A stretch of DNA of 64,000 nucleotides from Sphingomicrobium sp. (lineage in GTDB: Bacteria; Pseudomonadota; Alphaproteobacteria; Sphingomonadales; Sphingomonadaceae): the NCBI GenBank assembly GCA_030447545.1, contig JAUJOV010000001.1, positions 124,001 through 188,000 of the forward strand, in the 5' to 3' direction. The translations under genes were made by a program, and so were the position numbers. Of this stretch, positions 36,692-44,225 are shown one piece after another. Numbering within the stretch: position 1 is the first letter of the stretch; every line of letters begins with the position of its first letter. Below the pieces are notes generated by a model. It was not told the DNA's origin. It made no database searches and saw nothing but the letters and a program-made list of their open reading frames with translations.

Positions 36692-36826
36692 AAGGAACGG
36701 CACCGCCTCCCCAGGTGCCTTCCCGCTCGAGGCGGCCGGACTGCCCCAGTCCGCCGCCTCTTTTTCCTCGCTTGTTCAAAGGAGTGCATTCAAGCGCGGT
36801 TCAGCGCAGGCCGCGGCTATGCGGCT

Positions 36827-36842
36827 TGTTACGTAATAATGT
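36827..36842. promoter_or_regulatory. Candidate Zur-type operator upstream of TonB receptor
   Basis: TGTTACGTAATAATGT contains the perfect palindrome TTACGTAA and resembles the AT-rich dyads bound by Zur/Fur proteins in alphaproteobacteria. It is the only such AT-rich dyad in a GC-rich setting and lies 50 bases before the GTG start of the His-rich receptor. Assignment is inference. Confidence 0.4.
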
Positions 36843-36891
36843 CTCGGCTAATTCGCCGCGCGCCTTTTTTCAAAGTGAGCTCTGGATCCTC

Positions 36892-39090
36892 GTGAAGATC
36901 ATTGCCGCCTTTCTTGCGTCCGCAGCACTTGGTGCTTCGCCGGCCCTTGCGCAGCAGACTAATCAGCCCGACCCGGAGGATCAGCAGCAGGAGGCGGCGC
37001 AGCCGCAGCCCGCCGCCCAGGAGCCTCCGGCGCACGAAGGCCACGAGCATCACGAAGAGGCGCCGGAAATCGTCGTGACCGGCGTGAGGCAGCTGGACAT
37101 CCTTGCCGGCACCTCGGTCTTGTCCGGCGAGGAGCTTCAGCGCGACGTCCGCGGGCAGATCGGCGAGACCCTGACGCGCCTGCCGGGCGTGTCGGCGACA
37201 TCCTTTAGCCCCGGCGCCTCGCGGCCCGTGCTGCGCGGCTTCCAGGGCGAGCGCGTCCGAGTGCTAACCGATGGCATCGGCTCGATCGACGTGTCGAGCA
37301 CGTCGGCGGACCATGCGGTGACGATCGACCCGCTCACTGCCGAGCGGGTCGAAGTGCTCCACGGGCCGGCTGTGCTGCTGTTCGGCAGCCAGGCGATCGG
37401 CGGCGCGGTCACTGTCATCGACCGGCGCATCCCGCGCTCCGTCCCCGAGGAGGGCGTTCACGGTGATGTGCTCGGCGTCCTGGGCTCGGCCGCCGAGGAA
37501 CGCTCGATCGGCGGAGCCTTCGATTTCGCGCTCGGCAGCGGGTTTGTCGCCCATGTCGACGGCACCCTGCGCAAGAGCGACGACCTTCGCACCGGCGGGT
37601 TCGTGCTTTCGCCCGAGCTTCGCGAGGAGCAGTTCGAGATTGCCGAGGAGGAGCTCGAGGAGGGCCACCCCGACGAGGCGGCCGAAGCGCTCGAGCTTGC
37701 CAATCTGCGCGGCGAGATCCCCAACAGCGCGACCGAGCAGCAGACCGTCGGCATCGGCCTCGCGCTGATCCGCGACAGCTTCAACATCGGCGGGTCGATC
37801 AGCCGCTTCGAAAGCAACTACGGCGTGCCTTCGCGGCCCGGTGCGGGGCACGGGCACCACGAGGAAGAGGGCGTTGAAGAAAGCGACGGCGGCGAGGACA
37901 AAGAGGAGGAGCACGGCGAGGCGCCGGTCACGATCGACCTCAAGCAGACCCGTTACGACCTTCGCGGCGGATATGAATTCGGCTCGGGCTTCTTCGAAAG
38001 CGCGCGCCTGCGCATGGGCGCGGCCAATTACGAGCACACCGAGTTCGAGGGCGAGGAAGTCGGCACCGTGTTCAAGTCGGACGGCGTCGAAGGGCGGCTC
38101 GAGTTCGCGCAGCGCGAGCAGGGCGGCTGGACCGGCGCGAGCGGAGTTCAGTATTTCACGCGCGACTTCGCGGCGATCGGCCCGGAGGCGTTCGTTCCGC
38201 CCAACGAAAGCCGGCAACTCGGCCTCTTCACGCTTCAGGAGATAGACCTCGGACGCGTCGGGCTCGAGGCCGCCGCGCGTTACGAGCGCAGCAGGGCCGA
38301 GGCGCACACGCTCGGGCTTGAGCGCACCTTCAATGCCTTTTCGGCCGCCCTTGGCGCATCGTACGAAGTGGATCCGCGAGTCCGCGTCGGGCTCAACCTG
38401 TCGCGCAGCGAGCGCGCGCCTGCGGCCGAGGAGCTGTTCGCCAACGGCCCGCACATCGCCACGCAGGCCTTCGAGATCGGCGACCCCAATCTCGATACCG
38501 AAAAGAGCATCGGCGCCGAGGCCTACGTACGCGTCGAGAAAACCGGCTTCGAGTTCAATGTGACCGGCTTCGCCAACCGCTTCAACGACTTCATCTACCA
38601 GGAAGAAACCGGCTTCGAGGAAGACGAGCTGCCGGTGTTCCAGCACCGGCAGGCGGACGCGACCTTCTACGGCTTCGAAGCGGAAGCTTCCGCGCGGCTG
38701 TTCGAGGCGGGCGGGTTCCGCTTCGTTGCCGACGCCGTCGCGGACTATGTACGCGCGACGATCAAGGGCGGCGGCCCCGTGCCGCGCATCCCGCCGCTGC
38801 GGCTGCTCGGCGGACTCGAGGCGCAGTCGGACCAAGTCGACGGCCGCGTCGAGGTCGAGTGGGTGAATGAGCAGGACCGCGTCGCCGAGTTCGAGAACCC
38901 GACCGACGGCTTCACCTTGTTCAACGCTTCGCTCGCGTGGCGGCCGTGGGGCAAGGCGCGCGAAGCCAGCCTGGTGCTGAGCGCGAACAACATCTTCGAT
39001 GTCGAAGCGCGTCGGCACGCCTCGTTCACCAAGGACTTCGTGCCGCTGGGCGGCCGCGACATCCGCCTCAGCGCCCGTTTCGGCTTCTAG
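36892..39090 (+). CDS. TonB-dependent receptor, zinc (ZnuD)-type
   Basis: From GTG 36892 (the track start at 36715 is upstream of the signal): MKIIAAFLASAALGASPALA is the signal peptide, followed by a His/Glu-rich stretch (AHEGHEHHEEAPEIVVTGVR) that runs into the plug (LPGVSATSFSPGASRPVLRG, VDVSSTSADHAVTIDPLTAE). A second His/Glu-rich loop sits in the barrel at about residue 320 (GAGHGHHEEEGVEES, then GGEDKEEEHGEAP). About 732 residues; the barrel ends in IRLSARFGF. Metal-binding loops and the CDF exporter gene downstream point to zinc or a similar divalent metal, as for ZnuD. The metal is inferred. Confidence 0.85.
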   Translation: MKIIAAFLASAALGASPALAQQTNQPDPEDQQQEAAQPQPAAQEPPAHEGHEHHEEAPEIVVTGVRQLDILAGTSVLSGEELQRDVRGQIGETLTRLPGVSATSFSPGASRPVLRGFQGERVRVLTDGIGSIDVSSTSADHAVTIDPLTAERVEVLHGPAVLLFGSQAIGGAVTVIDRRIPRSVPEEGVHGDVLGVLGSAAEERSIGGAFDFALGSGFVAHVDGTLRKSDDLRTGGFVLSPELREEQFEIAEEELEEGHPDEAAEALELANLRGEIPNSATEQQTVGIGLALIRDSFNIGGSISRFESNYGVPSRPGAGHGHHEEEGVEESDGGEDKEEEHGEAPVTIDLKQTRYDLRGGYEFGSGFFESARLRMGAANYEHTEFEGEEVGTVFKSDGVEGRLEFAQREQGGWTGASGVQYFTRDFAAIGPEAFVPPNESRQLGLFTLQEIDLGRVGLEAAARYERSRAEAHTLGLERTFNAFSAALGASYEVDPRVRVGLNLSRSERAPAAEELFANGPHIATQAFEIGDPNLDTEKSIGAEAYVRVEKTGFEFNVTGFANRFNDFIYQEETGFEEDELPVFQHRQADATFYGFEAEASARLFEAGGFRFVADAVADYVRATIKGGGPVPRIPPLRLLGGLEAQSDQVDGRVEVEWVNEQDRVAEFENPTDGFTLFNASLAWRPWGKAREASLVLSANNIFDVEARRHASFTKDFVPLGGRDIRLSARFGF

Positions 39091-39140
39091 CCAGCCCTCT
39101 GCTTGTGTCCGGCCGGGCCGACGCCTAGTCCGACCCGGCT

Positions 39141-40028
39141 ATGGACGTCCACGGCCATTTGCACGTCGGGACGCGAAACTTCGACCGCGTGTTCGCGATC
39201 GGCATCCTGCTCAACCTCGGCTTCGTGATCGTCGAGGCGGTGTTCGGCTTCATTGCCAATTCGGTCGCGCTGATGGCGGACGCGGGCCACAACCTGTCCG
39301 ACGTGCTCGGGCTGATCGTCGCCTGGGCGGGAGCGGTGATGGCTCGTCGGGAGGCGTCGCGGCGCTTCACTTACGGGCTGAAGAAGGCGTCGATCCTCGC
39401 CGCGCTGATCAATTCGCTGTTCCTGCTGGTGGCCGTCGGCGCGATCGGGGCGGAAGCGGTCCGCCGGCTGTTCGACCCGTCGAGCACTCAAGGCACGCTT
39501 GTCATCATCGTCGCCGCGGCGGGCATTGCAGTGAACGGCTTCACCGCCTTTCTCTTCTCGCGCGGCAGCCGCGACGACATCAACATCCGCGGCGCCTTCC
39601 TCCACATGAGCGCGGACGCGGCCGTCTCGGCCGCCGTGGTGTTCGCCGGGCTGGTGATCCTGCTGACCGGGCAGATGTGGGTCGATCCGGTCATGAGCCT
39701 CGCGGTTGCAATCGTCATCCTGTGGAGCAGCTTCGGCCTGCTCAAGGAATCGGTGTGGATGTCGCTTGCCGGGGTGCCGTCGGGCATTGTCATCGACGAG
39801 GTCGAGACGGCGCTTGCCGAGCTCGACGGAGTGGCCGCGGTGCACGACCTCCACGTCTGGCCGCTGAGCACGACCGAAAATGCGCTGACCGCACATCTGG
39901 TCGTTCCCGATCACGATTCATCCGACGGGCTGTTGCGCTCGGCCTGTGCGATGCTTCATGGCCGCTTCGGAATCGGCCACTCGACCATCCAGATCGAGCG
40001 GGAGCACCAGGGCAACGCGCACTGCTGA
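39141..40028 (+). CDS. Cation diffusion facilitator (CDF) family exporter
   Basis: 295 residues with six membrane helices. LMADAGHNLSDVLGLIVAWA carries the D-x(3)-D / H-x-x-x-D metal site of helix 2, HMSADAAVSAAVVFAGLVIL (helix 5) a second H-x-x-x-D, and the cytoplasmic C-terminal domain (VAAVHDLHVWPLSTTENALT) has the conserved HDLHVWP. The N-terminus is His-rich (MDVHGHLHVGT). It exports zinc, cobalt or cadmium with proton antiport. It starts 50 bases after the receptor gene in the same direction, forming an uptake/efflux pair for one metal. Confidence 0.9.
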   Translation: MDVHGHLHVGTRNFDRVFAIGILLNLGFVIVEAVFGFIANSVALMADAGHNLSDVLGLIVAWAGAVMARREASRRFTYGLKKASILAALINSLFLLVAVGAIGAEAVRRLFDPSSTQGTLVIIVAAAGIAVNGFTAFLFSRGSRDDINIRGAFLHMSADAAVSAAVVFAGLVILLTGQMWVDPVMSLAVAIVILWSSFGLLKESVWMSLAGVPSGIVIDEVETALAELDGVAAVHDLHVWPLSTTENALTAHLVVPDHDSSDGLLRSACAMLHGRFGIGHSTIQIEREHQGNAHC

Positions 40029-40029
40029 C

Positions 40030-41234
40030 ATGAACGTGACCCATCTCGAATGTTCGCTGACGGGCGAGCGCTACACGGCGAACGAGCCGCACAATCTTAG
40101 CCGCGCAGGCAAGCCCCTGCTCGTTCGCTACGACTTCGATCAGGCGCGCGCCACGCTCACTCGCGAGAGCATTGCCGGCCGCCCGCGCGACATGTGGAAA
40201 TGGCGTGAGCTGCTTCCATTGCCCGACGGATGTGAGCCGGTGAGCCTGGGCGAGAACGAGACTCCGCTGATCGAGCTCGCCAACACCGCGGCGCGCGCCG
40301 GCGCGTCGAGCCTCATCGTCAAGGACGAGGGCCGGCTTCCGACCGGCTCGGTCATGGCGCGCGGCCGCGCCCTCGGCGGGACCATGGCGCGGCCTTTCGG
40401 CATCGCTTGAGTGGCGCTTCCGACCAACGGCAATGCCGGCGCGGCGCTCGCGGCCTATGCGGCCCGTGCAGGGATGGACTCTTCTCGTCGTCTGCCCCGC
40501 AGAAACTCCGCAGATCAACGTCACCGAAACCGCGGCTTACGGCGCGCGCGTGTGGGTGGCGGACGGTCAGATCGACGAGTGCGGGCGGCCTGATCCGCGA
40601 AGGGGCGGCCGAGGGCCGCTGGTTCGACTGCTCGACCCTCAAGGAGCCGTACCGCCTCGAGGGCAAGAAAGTGATGGGGCTCGAGCTTGCCGAGCAGCTC
40701 GGCTGGACCCTGCCGGACGCGATCTTCTATCCGACCGGCGGCGGCACCGGCCTGATTGGCATGTGGAAGGGCTTCGACGAGCTCGAGGCCGCAGGCCTGA
40801 TCGGGCCGGAGCGCCCGCGCATGTACGCGGTCCAGGCGTCCGGCTGCGCACCGATCGTCCGCGCGTTCGAACGGGGCGACGAGTTCGCCGAGCGCTGGGA
40901 AGGCGCGGCGACGGCGGCAATCAGGAATCTGCGTGCCGAGCGCGGTCGGCGACTTCCTGATCCTGCGCGCCGTGCGCGACAGTGGAGGCGCGGCCATCGC
41001 CGTGGACGAGGACTCGATCCTGCAAGCCGTCGAGGACGTGGCCCGCGACGACGGCATGCTGTTCTGCCCCGAAGGCGGGGCGGTGCTCGCCGGCTGGCGC
41101 TCTGCGCTCGAGCGCGGGCTCGTCAGGCCCGACGAGCGCGTGGTGCTGTTCAACTGCGCCAACGGAAACAATATCCGCTGCCCGATCGCTCGAAGCAGCT
41201 GGAACTGTCGAGCGCCGGCGCCGCGATGCTTTAA
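40030..41234 (+). pseudogene. thrC: Threonine synthase, broken and lacking the PLP lysine
   Basis: The start MNVTHLECSLTGERYTANEP, LSRAGKPLLVRYDF and MWKWRELLPLPDGCEPVSLG is that of the archaeal/plant-type threonine synthase. In the cofactor site the family sequence P-T-G-S-F-K-A-R-G reads PTGSVMARG, so the lysine that binds pyridoxal phosphate is Met. An in-frame TGA follows FGIA at about 40408, after which VALPTNGNAGAALAAYAARA continues. Three or more further frame changes separate WFDCSTLKEPYRLEGKKVMG, PTGGGTGLIGMWKGFDELEA, FLILRAVRDSGGAAIAV and LELSSAGAAML. Substitution of a catalytic residue in addition to shifts argues for true inactivation, so another threonine synthase should exist elsewhere. 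Confidence 0.7.
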
Positions 41235-42352: not shown

Positions 42353-43774
42353 CTATCGGCCAAGGATGCGAGCCAAGCCGAAAGTGGGTCCACTACTTAG
42401 GCGCGCCCAGTTCAGGTACTGGGAGATGCTATCGATCTGATCGTCGTACTGCCCATTCGGAAATTGCGTGATCTCAGTGCGGAGCGGCTCGAGCCAATCA
42501 GCCCGTTTGGGCAGAAGAACATGACCAGCCTCGATGGCTGGACTTTCGGCTACGAGGCGGGACACTTTGTCCGCTTGCGGCGTGCACCCAATCGGATTCG
42601 GTACGCCGACTAATTTTTCCTGCGCTAGCTGCTGGATTAGCGCCGTCCCCGTCACTTTGTCTTCGATCAGAATGGTGTTCGCTTGGTATTTACGCGCGAG
42701 CTCCACGACCATCCACTTTAGGTCCGGGAAATCCCATCGATGACGCAGGATGTAGATCAGGTAGTGGTCGCTCCTGTCGAACCCAGGTTGTGCAAACCGA
42801 AATAGTCGTTGCCTGCTCCAGCCTTCATGCCGATGTCCCAGCTCTGCACGATTGTGTGGCCGGAACCAGCCGGCGCTCTCTCGAATGGCTTAAACCATCT
42901 CCACTTGATGAGCTCTCCTTCGACAGGAATAGGCCGCTGCTGGTACTGAGCGGAGAAGTTATAGCTACCAAGGGTCGTACGAAGGTGCTCCAGGGCGGAC
43001 CGAGGCTCCCTCGCCGTATGAAGTACGTCGCCGGTGGGCCGATTGAACACCCGCTGGATCCCGATTGGCACAGACTGGGGTTCATCGGCGATCGCTGGCA
43101 GGGAGAGTACCGTCCAGCCTCCCTGGTCTCGAAGGTGCCCTGCAAGGTCATTCTGATGAAGCCGCTGCATGACAACAACGATCGCCCCATTCACCTTATC
43201 GTCGAGCCGCGAGAACGCCGTGTTCGCGTACCAGTTGATCACCGCTTCACGTTTTGCGTCAGAGGCCGCTTCCTTCGCGTTCATGATGTCATCCAAGATC
43301 AACAGGTCGCCGCCGCGCCCTGTCAATGTGCCGCCCGGTGACGTCGAGTGTCGGTAGCCGCGAGCGGTTGTATGAAACTCGGTCTCGGTGTTCTTGCCGT
43401 TGCCGATGACAGTGCCTGGAAACAGGGCGCGGTACATGTCAGTCCGCATCAGTGTCCGGCAGTCGTTGGCATGCTTGATAGCGAGATCGGCTGAGTAGCT
43501 AGCAGCGATAATCTTGCGCGCGGGATTATGGCCAAGGCAGAAGGCGGGGAATGCCACCGACGCCGCGATCGACTTCAGAGATCGGGTGGCACTTCGATGA
43601 TGAGGCGTGTCACCTCGCCACTTCGGACGCCCTCCAGCTGATAGCAAATGGCATCAAGATGCCAGTTCCACCGGAGCGGCTCGCCGGCAACGATCAGCGG
43701 AACGCCATTCGGAGAAATGACGCCAAGTCGGAGCGAAGGATCGCGTCGCGCAGACGCCGTTGGTCAATTGTCAT
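42353..43774 (-). pseudogene. Phage terminase large subunit, frameshifted
   Basis: ATG 43774 opens MTIDQRRLRDAILRSDLASF, then a shift gives LIVAGEPLRWNWHLDAICYQ and VTRLIIEVPPD, and a third frame LKSIAASVAFPAFCLGHNPA (around the Walker A region, family R-S-L-K-S), LILDDIMNAKEAASDAKREA (Walker B, L-I-L-D-D) and the nuclease half (SWDIGMKAGAGNDYFGLHNL). The last piece, VELARKYQANTILIEDKVTG to the stop at 42353, is in yet another frame. At least three shifts. It would have packaged phage DNA with its ATPase and nuclease. Overlaps the DUF5681 gene by 11 bases. Confidence 0.7.
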
Positions 43775-44225
43775 CGACGTCGCTGACGGGAGGCAGGTTC
43801 CGCCAATAAGCGTCGATGATTTCCTGATCCTCGCGGATCACAGCTGCTAGATCAGCAGGGGGTTCAGCCGGCAGGTGCGCGGCAGCCAGCAGCAACAGTC
43901 GATCGATGGCGCGAACGTCACCATTCAGGACTTGCTGGCGCAGCCTCAGGAGCATCGCGTGCGTTGTCGACACCTTGCTCTTGCGGCCGCCTTCTGTGAC
44001 CACGACCTTGGCCTGGAGCACCTCCCGCAATTCAGTTTTGAATGAGCGTCGGCCTTTGGGCCGCCCGGCCGGATCCCAAGAGACACCTTTCTTAAACTGG
44101 CTTGCAGCAGGTGGTTTCTTGTAGCCCACCTCCTCAGATTTCTGTTCGTTGCTAGTGCGGGCTGTAGTTTCCCCACTTTTCCCTTCTACTGGCTCAACCT
44201 CGCCGTCGCTTGTCTTAATGCTCAT
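43764..44225 (-). CDS. DUF5681 phage-associated protein (small-terminase-like position)
   Basis: 153 residues. KKPPAASQFKKGVSWDPAGR, followed by PKGRRSFKTELREVL, is the DUF5681 signature (normally KGVSGNPAGRPKG; here G-N is W-D). Such proteins are encoded between methylase and large-terminase genes in sphingomonad and rhizobial prophages and are thought to act as small terminase or DNA-binding partners. The frame is intact. ATG 44225 overlaps the stop of the methylase gene (ATGA) and its end overlaps the terminase start. Confidence 0.75.
   Translation of the reverse strand: MSIKTSDGEVEPVEGKSGETTARTSNEQKSEEVGYKKPPAASQFKKGVSWDPAGRPKGRRSFKTELREVLQAKVVVTEGGRKSKVSTTHAMLLRLRQQVLNGDVRAIDRLLLLAAAHLPAEPPADLAAVIREDQEIIDAYWRNLPPVSDVDDN

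Follow-up and report, generated by a model that had tools for sequence, protein, structure and literature searches.

The window, a stretch of 64,000 nucleotides from a Sphingomicrobium genome (2.3 Mb, 70% complete), contains a locus in which four genes follow one another on the + strand: a pspC-like gene (36066), a TonB-dependent receptor, a CDF cation exporter and a threonine-synthase-like gene beginning at 40030. The features of the locus are collected in Table 1. The same locus is carried by S. hankyongi. In the window the threonine-synthase-like gene is broken up across several reading frames, but in S. hankyongi (locus L120) it is open, and rpoB of the window's genome is also fragmented; together, the two broken genes make indel errors in the assembly likely. 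Phage-type genes (Terminase_6C domain, DUF5681) lie close downstream of the locus, at 42353-44222 on the - strand.

Table 1 Features of the receptor-exporter locus (positions in the window).
Feature	Position	Strand	Basis
Zur-type operator within the promoter; registers 36825-36843 and 36829-36849 overlap	36825-36849		two matrices; same box before merC-zur
-35-like element TTGTTA, receptor promoter	36826-36831	+	TTG/NTA pair with Zur box within, 30 of 31 genus orthologs
-10-like element CTAATT, 16 bases past TTGTTA	36848-36853	+	ortholog promoter comparison
TonB-dependent receptor, ZnuD-type, 732 aa, GTG start	36892-39090	+	phmmer, Pfam, ligand alignment
-35-like element TTGTGT, putative promoter of the CDF gene	39103-39108	+	ortholog comparison
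-10-like element CTAGTC, 16 bases past TTGTGT, 10 before ATG	39125-39130	+	pattern at 12 of 18 CDF orthologs
CDF cation exporter, 295 aa, zinc-type HDHD site (H50, D54, H155, D159)	39141-40028	+	domain models, solved relatives, orthologs
Threonine-synthase-like PLP-enzyme gene, usually 3' of CDF or receptor; frameshifted in assembly	40030-41199	+

A ZnuD-type receptor

The receptor begins with a good signal peptide, and its plug (PF07715, 69 bits) and barrel (PF00593, 134 bits) both matched Pfam above cut-off. By phmmer, the closest solved structure was ZnuD of Neisseria meningitidis (4rdr, 2e-59), with the runner-up at 1e-11. The buried zinc of ZnuD is held by Asp-99, His-100, Glu-340 and His-499 (PMC4557270), and alignment to 4RDR gave a counterpart for all four ligands in the receptor (D140, H141, E384 and H521); across 35 orthologs three of these were invariant and the Glu was retained in 33. 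The two proteins are ~30% identical overall. The score of the receptor against the NCBIfam ZnuD model NF038289 (362.8 bits) was far below its cut-off (950 bits); therefore, the receptor is a ZnuD-like relative and not the Neisseria equivalog. These results bear out the ZnuD-type assignment of an earlier, sequence-only reading of this DNA, and we regard the protein as a predicted ZnuD-type outer-membrane zinc importer.

That reading had also described two loops rich in His and Glu. Residues 316-344 (GAGHGHHEEEGVEESDGGEDKEEEHGEAP) match the position of the metal-sensing loop 3 of ZnuD, and residues 244-268 are Glu-rich with a single His (loop positions are taken from the alignment to ZnuD; a single-sequence AlphaFold model had a mean pLDDT of 35). 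To this extent the description holds, but the most His-rich stretch of the receptor, AHEGHEHHEEA at residues 47-57, is N-terminal to a TonB-box-like EIVVTG, which predicts a position in the periplasm and not in a surface loop. The receptor and ZnuD appear to share the plug and barrel, the four buried zinc ligands, an acidic/His loop 3 and a Zur-type operator, whereas loop 3 of the receptor is richer in Glu and its periplasmic N-terminus is His-rich.

A Zur-type operator inside the receptor promoter

An AT-rich dyad had been noted about 50 bases upstream of the receptor. The dyad, TGTTACGTAATAATGT, occupies exactly 36827-36842 and ends 49 bases before the receptor start; here, at a zinc-uptake gene, it fits the inverted repeat GTTA-N5-TAAC in seven of eight fixed bases (GTTA-CGTAA-TAAT). 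The window was scored with two matrices. With the matrix built from 22 sites upstream of receptor orthologs, which excluded the window and used no zur locus, the site at 36829 was the top site of the 64 kb at 12.9 bits and the next independent site reached 5.7; by chance this matrix is expected to give 0.2 sites per 64 kb with scores of at least 10 bits, and no site at 12. With the matrix built solely from five sites of Zur-repressed Caulobacter promoters, which according to PMC4176598 are bound by Zur in gel shifts, the site at 36825 again ranked first (16.6, the second being 10.6). Since two separate matrices both place the dyad above every other Zur-type site of the 64 kb, it is not a chance occurrence.

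The genome encodes a Zur protein most similar to Xanthomonas and E. coli Zur, and a strong box (19.0 bits by the ortholog matrix, at L033:9456) stands just before its merC-zur operon. When zur loci across the genus were scanned with the same matrix, each of the 30 covered had a box ahead of merC-zur, at 13-24 bits. The window operator is among the weakest of the genus, with 12.9 bits against 17-28 for most. We can say with good confidence that the box is a putative Zur operator, as the sequence-only reading had suspected, though a weak member within the genus.

The Zur box lies between a TTG and an NTA element spaced by 15-18 bases in 30 of the 31 orthologs from the genus, and the window shows the same arrangement (TTGTTA-N16-CTAATT). 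A sigma-70 consensus scan found no promoter; its consensus is that of E. coli, and the promoters here read TTG-N(15-18)-CTA. Zur operators of Caulobacter repress when located between -10 and -35 and activate when located upstream of -35, as described in PMC4176598. Since the box in the window lies between the -35-like and -10-like elements, repression by zinc-bound Zur would be the expected outcome under the Caulobacter rule. In its position the operator resembles those of Caulobacter zrpW and znuM, to go by that report. The Zur regulon of Caulobacter crescentus described there (znuK, znuL, znuM and zrpW, with czrCBA activated) shares with our locus the Zur-repressed TonB receptors, predicted in our case, and the GTTA-N5-TAAC operator. 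The exporters of Caulobacter are, however, of the RND and P-type and activated by Zur, and a znuGHI ABC system is present, unlike here; the available text of PMC4176598 reports no CDF adjoining a receptor.

The exporter and its own promoter-like element

The CDF gene starts 50 bases past the receptor stop, and its product has a His-rich N-terminus (MDVHGHLHVG, three His in eight residues), both as previously noted. The sequence-only reading had assumed one transcription unit and pointed to a paradox: an importer and an exporter of presumably the same metal would be induced together, unless the CDF has its own promoter or serves another metal. The first of these alternatives found its counterpart in the 50-base gap, where we detected a conserved promoter-like element. 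The pattern TTG-N(15-17)-YTA(G/C), located 5-14 nt before the start codon, was present in 12 of 18 CDF orthologs and missing in 6, a count that is somewhat inflated because some start codons were picked by eye near the -10-like element. As the orthologs are related, a binomial value for this count overstates its significance. The background frequency of the pattern was 4 of 3296 ATG/GTG in the window (0.12%) and 27 of 10432 in the genus loci (0.26%). The pattern was kept whether the receptor was upstream, divergent or absent; it was seen in all three genomes with the receptor-then-CDF order, and also in the divergent layout of S. hankyongi. Because the -10-like element ends only 10 nt before the ATG, a nearly leaderless CDF transcript would be expected. 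No Zur box was found in the receptor-CDF gap of any of the three genomes.

We surveyed the arrangement in 18 genomes that have a CDF at 55% identity or more. The receptor was directly upstream of the CDF in 3 (G000, G016 and G026), divergent from it in 6 (G004, G005, G007, G022, G027 and G030) and downstream of it in 3 (G010 and G025, and G028 by contig overlap). In 4 genomes the CDF was at the locus with no receptor adjoining (G012, G031, G034 and G036), and in the remaining 2 the CDF was located elsewhere (G014 and G029). A receptor without the CDF was found in many genomes. Such varied arrangements suggest that the pair is linked by place and not by one operon. In G036, which lacks the receptor, a decayed Zur-type box of 10.3 bits was observed upstream of the CDF (L061:1395-1415); it is perhaps the relic of a lost receptor.

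The two genes could still form one co-induced unit, in which transcription of the CDF at low zinc comes mainly from the receptor promoter and the exporter protects against zinc shock once the metal returns. They lie on the same strand with a gap of 50 bases, the order is common to three genomes, and no terminator-like site was found between receptor and CDF, so transcripts from the receptor promoter may read through into the CDF. Nevertheless, we consider this reading unlikely. Instead of a single promoter for both genes, a second promoter-like element is kept in the gap of all three genomes, and 15 of the 18 genomes have the CDF in some position other than downstream of the receptor, so that its function cannot depend on this layout. 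The assumption of one transcription unit, and with it the co-induction, is thus not upheld, and the paradox is most likely only apparent: the locus would have two promoters, one of them with a Zur operator.

The other way out of the paradox, a second metal, appears unnecessary. The CDF matched PF01545, PF16916 and TIGR01297 above cut-off, its HDHD site was invariant across 18 orthologs, and its best solved relatives were the SLC30 zinc antiporters. ZitB was the best named model, although the CDF scored 176.6 bits against an equivalog cut-off of 408 and in this differs from ZitB itself; with ZitB/SLC30-type zinc exporters it shares the HDHD transport site, a C-terminal ZT_dimer domain and the His-rich N-terminus. 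The features point to a zinc-type CDF, from which we infer zinc export. Export of Co, Ni, Mn, Fe or Cd in place of zinc would also remove the conflict, and sequence alone does not fix the specificity of a CDF, the DmeF and MntE models matching as well, if weakly; with the invariant HDHD site and the zinc antiporters as nearest solved relatives, we give this possibility little credence.

Zur may also act on such exporters in the opposite sense. In some Erythrobacteraceae and close relatives (L140, L156, L180, L182, L185 and L188), one or two strong Zur-type boxes were observed ~100-180 bases upstream of the CDF, immediately ahead of its own promoter, as would suit activation; other CDF loci of this group (L145, L152, L171 and L193) were without them. 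In each of the six genomes with the divergent layout, the box likewise precedes the CDF start by ~75-100 bases, and activation of exporters by Zur is described in PMC6103462, PMC4176598 and PMC9827704. A link between CDF and Zur, as in S. coelicolor zitB and X. campestris XC2976, may thus exist in some relatives. That Zur bound to the shared box likewise activates the window CDF when zinc is high, in the manner of S. coelicolor zitB or Caulobacter czrCBA, is nevertheless very improbable: 2.3 kb and a whole gene separate the box from the CDF promoter-like element, and unlike zitB and XC2976 this element has no Zur box. Binding of the dyad by Fur, which this genome also encodes, or by another AT-preferring regulator would suit a weak-match site, Fur boxes being AT-rich too, but it is highly unlikely given that the Caulobacter Zur matrix ranks the dyad first and the same motif precedes zur in every locus scanned.

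Probable receptor exchange beside a resident exporter

Between pspC and the threonine-synthase-like gene, two ZnuD lineages that are ~50% identical and oppositely oriented alternate (L003-L032, L037 and L038). The receptor tree split by orientation relative to these flanking genes, with + receptors forming one deep clade and - receptors the other, and no mixing was seen. Almost every genome had one receptor only at this level of similarity. The rpoB tree disagreed with the receptor tree: G020 (+) fell inside a clade of - genomes that had full support, while G008 (+) stood beside G009 (-) and G025 (+) beside G014 (-). The AU test with the receptor data rejected a tree in which G020 was held with its rpoB relatives (p 6e-9), and with the rpoB data it rejected holding G020 with G008 (p 1.6e-4) or all scattered + genomes together (p 1e-5); these p values are optimistic, as the groups were picked after the trees were seen. 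The simplest account is horizontal replacement of receptors at a fixed site. It would also explain the window, where a + receptor precedes a CDF that is 70-76% identical to the CDFs of genomes with a - receptor, and the pairing most plausibly reflects a receptor that was exchanged upstream of an exporter already in place.

More generally, the interval between pspC and the threonine-synthase-like gene is probably an exchange site, at which the two ZnuD lineages replace each other horizontally beside the resident zinc exporter, so that the receptor type is decoupled from the descent of the species, perhaps through selection by receptor-using phages or bacteriocins.

The account we favour for the window combines a Zur-repressed receptor, a separately promoted CDF and a receptor swap, and as a whole we hold it to be likely. 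When zinc is sufficient, zinc-bound Zur would occupy the operator, which lies between the -35 and -10 elements, and so block the receptor promoter; under zinc shortage, Zur would leave the operator and the receptor would be produced. The CDF would act as an inner-membrane zinc exporter, expressed from its own promoter in the gap without a Zur box, and its transcript would lead into the threonine-synthase-like gene. The + lineage of ZnuD receptors may have replaced whatever preceded the resident CDF, by horizontal exchange between the pspC and threonine-synthase-like flanks. In this way, what looked like an importer-exporter paradox may become two separately driven genes, with an operator and a second promoter that are both open to testing.

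How zinc crosses the inner membrane in these bacteria is a related point. A ZnuABC-type permease (PF00950) was absent from the 37 genus genomes searched, in which only weak matches were found, as expected from related permease families, and ZIP proteins occurred in fewer than half of the genus genomes. A gene for a MerC-family membrane protein headed the zur operon in every zur locus examined (L087-L116; in the window's own genome L033:8543-9440, C78), and a literature search on MerC and Zur returned no report naming the MerC domain. The lack of ZnuABC in the genus, together with a Zur-linked receptor and a zur-linked MerC, suggests an inner-membrane zinc route so far undescribed, for which MerC is a candidate.

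Much of the locus is otherwise ordinary, and the receptor swapping is its most interesting part. If two receptor lineages do replace each other at one site, the genus would offer a natural experiment on what drives the turnover of outer-membrane receptors.
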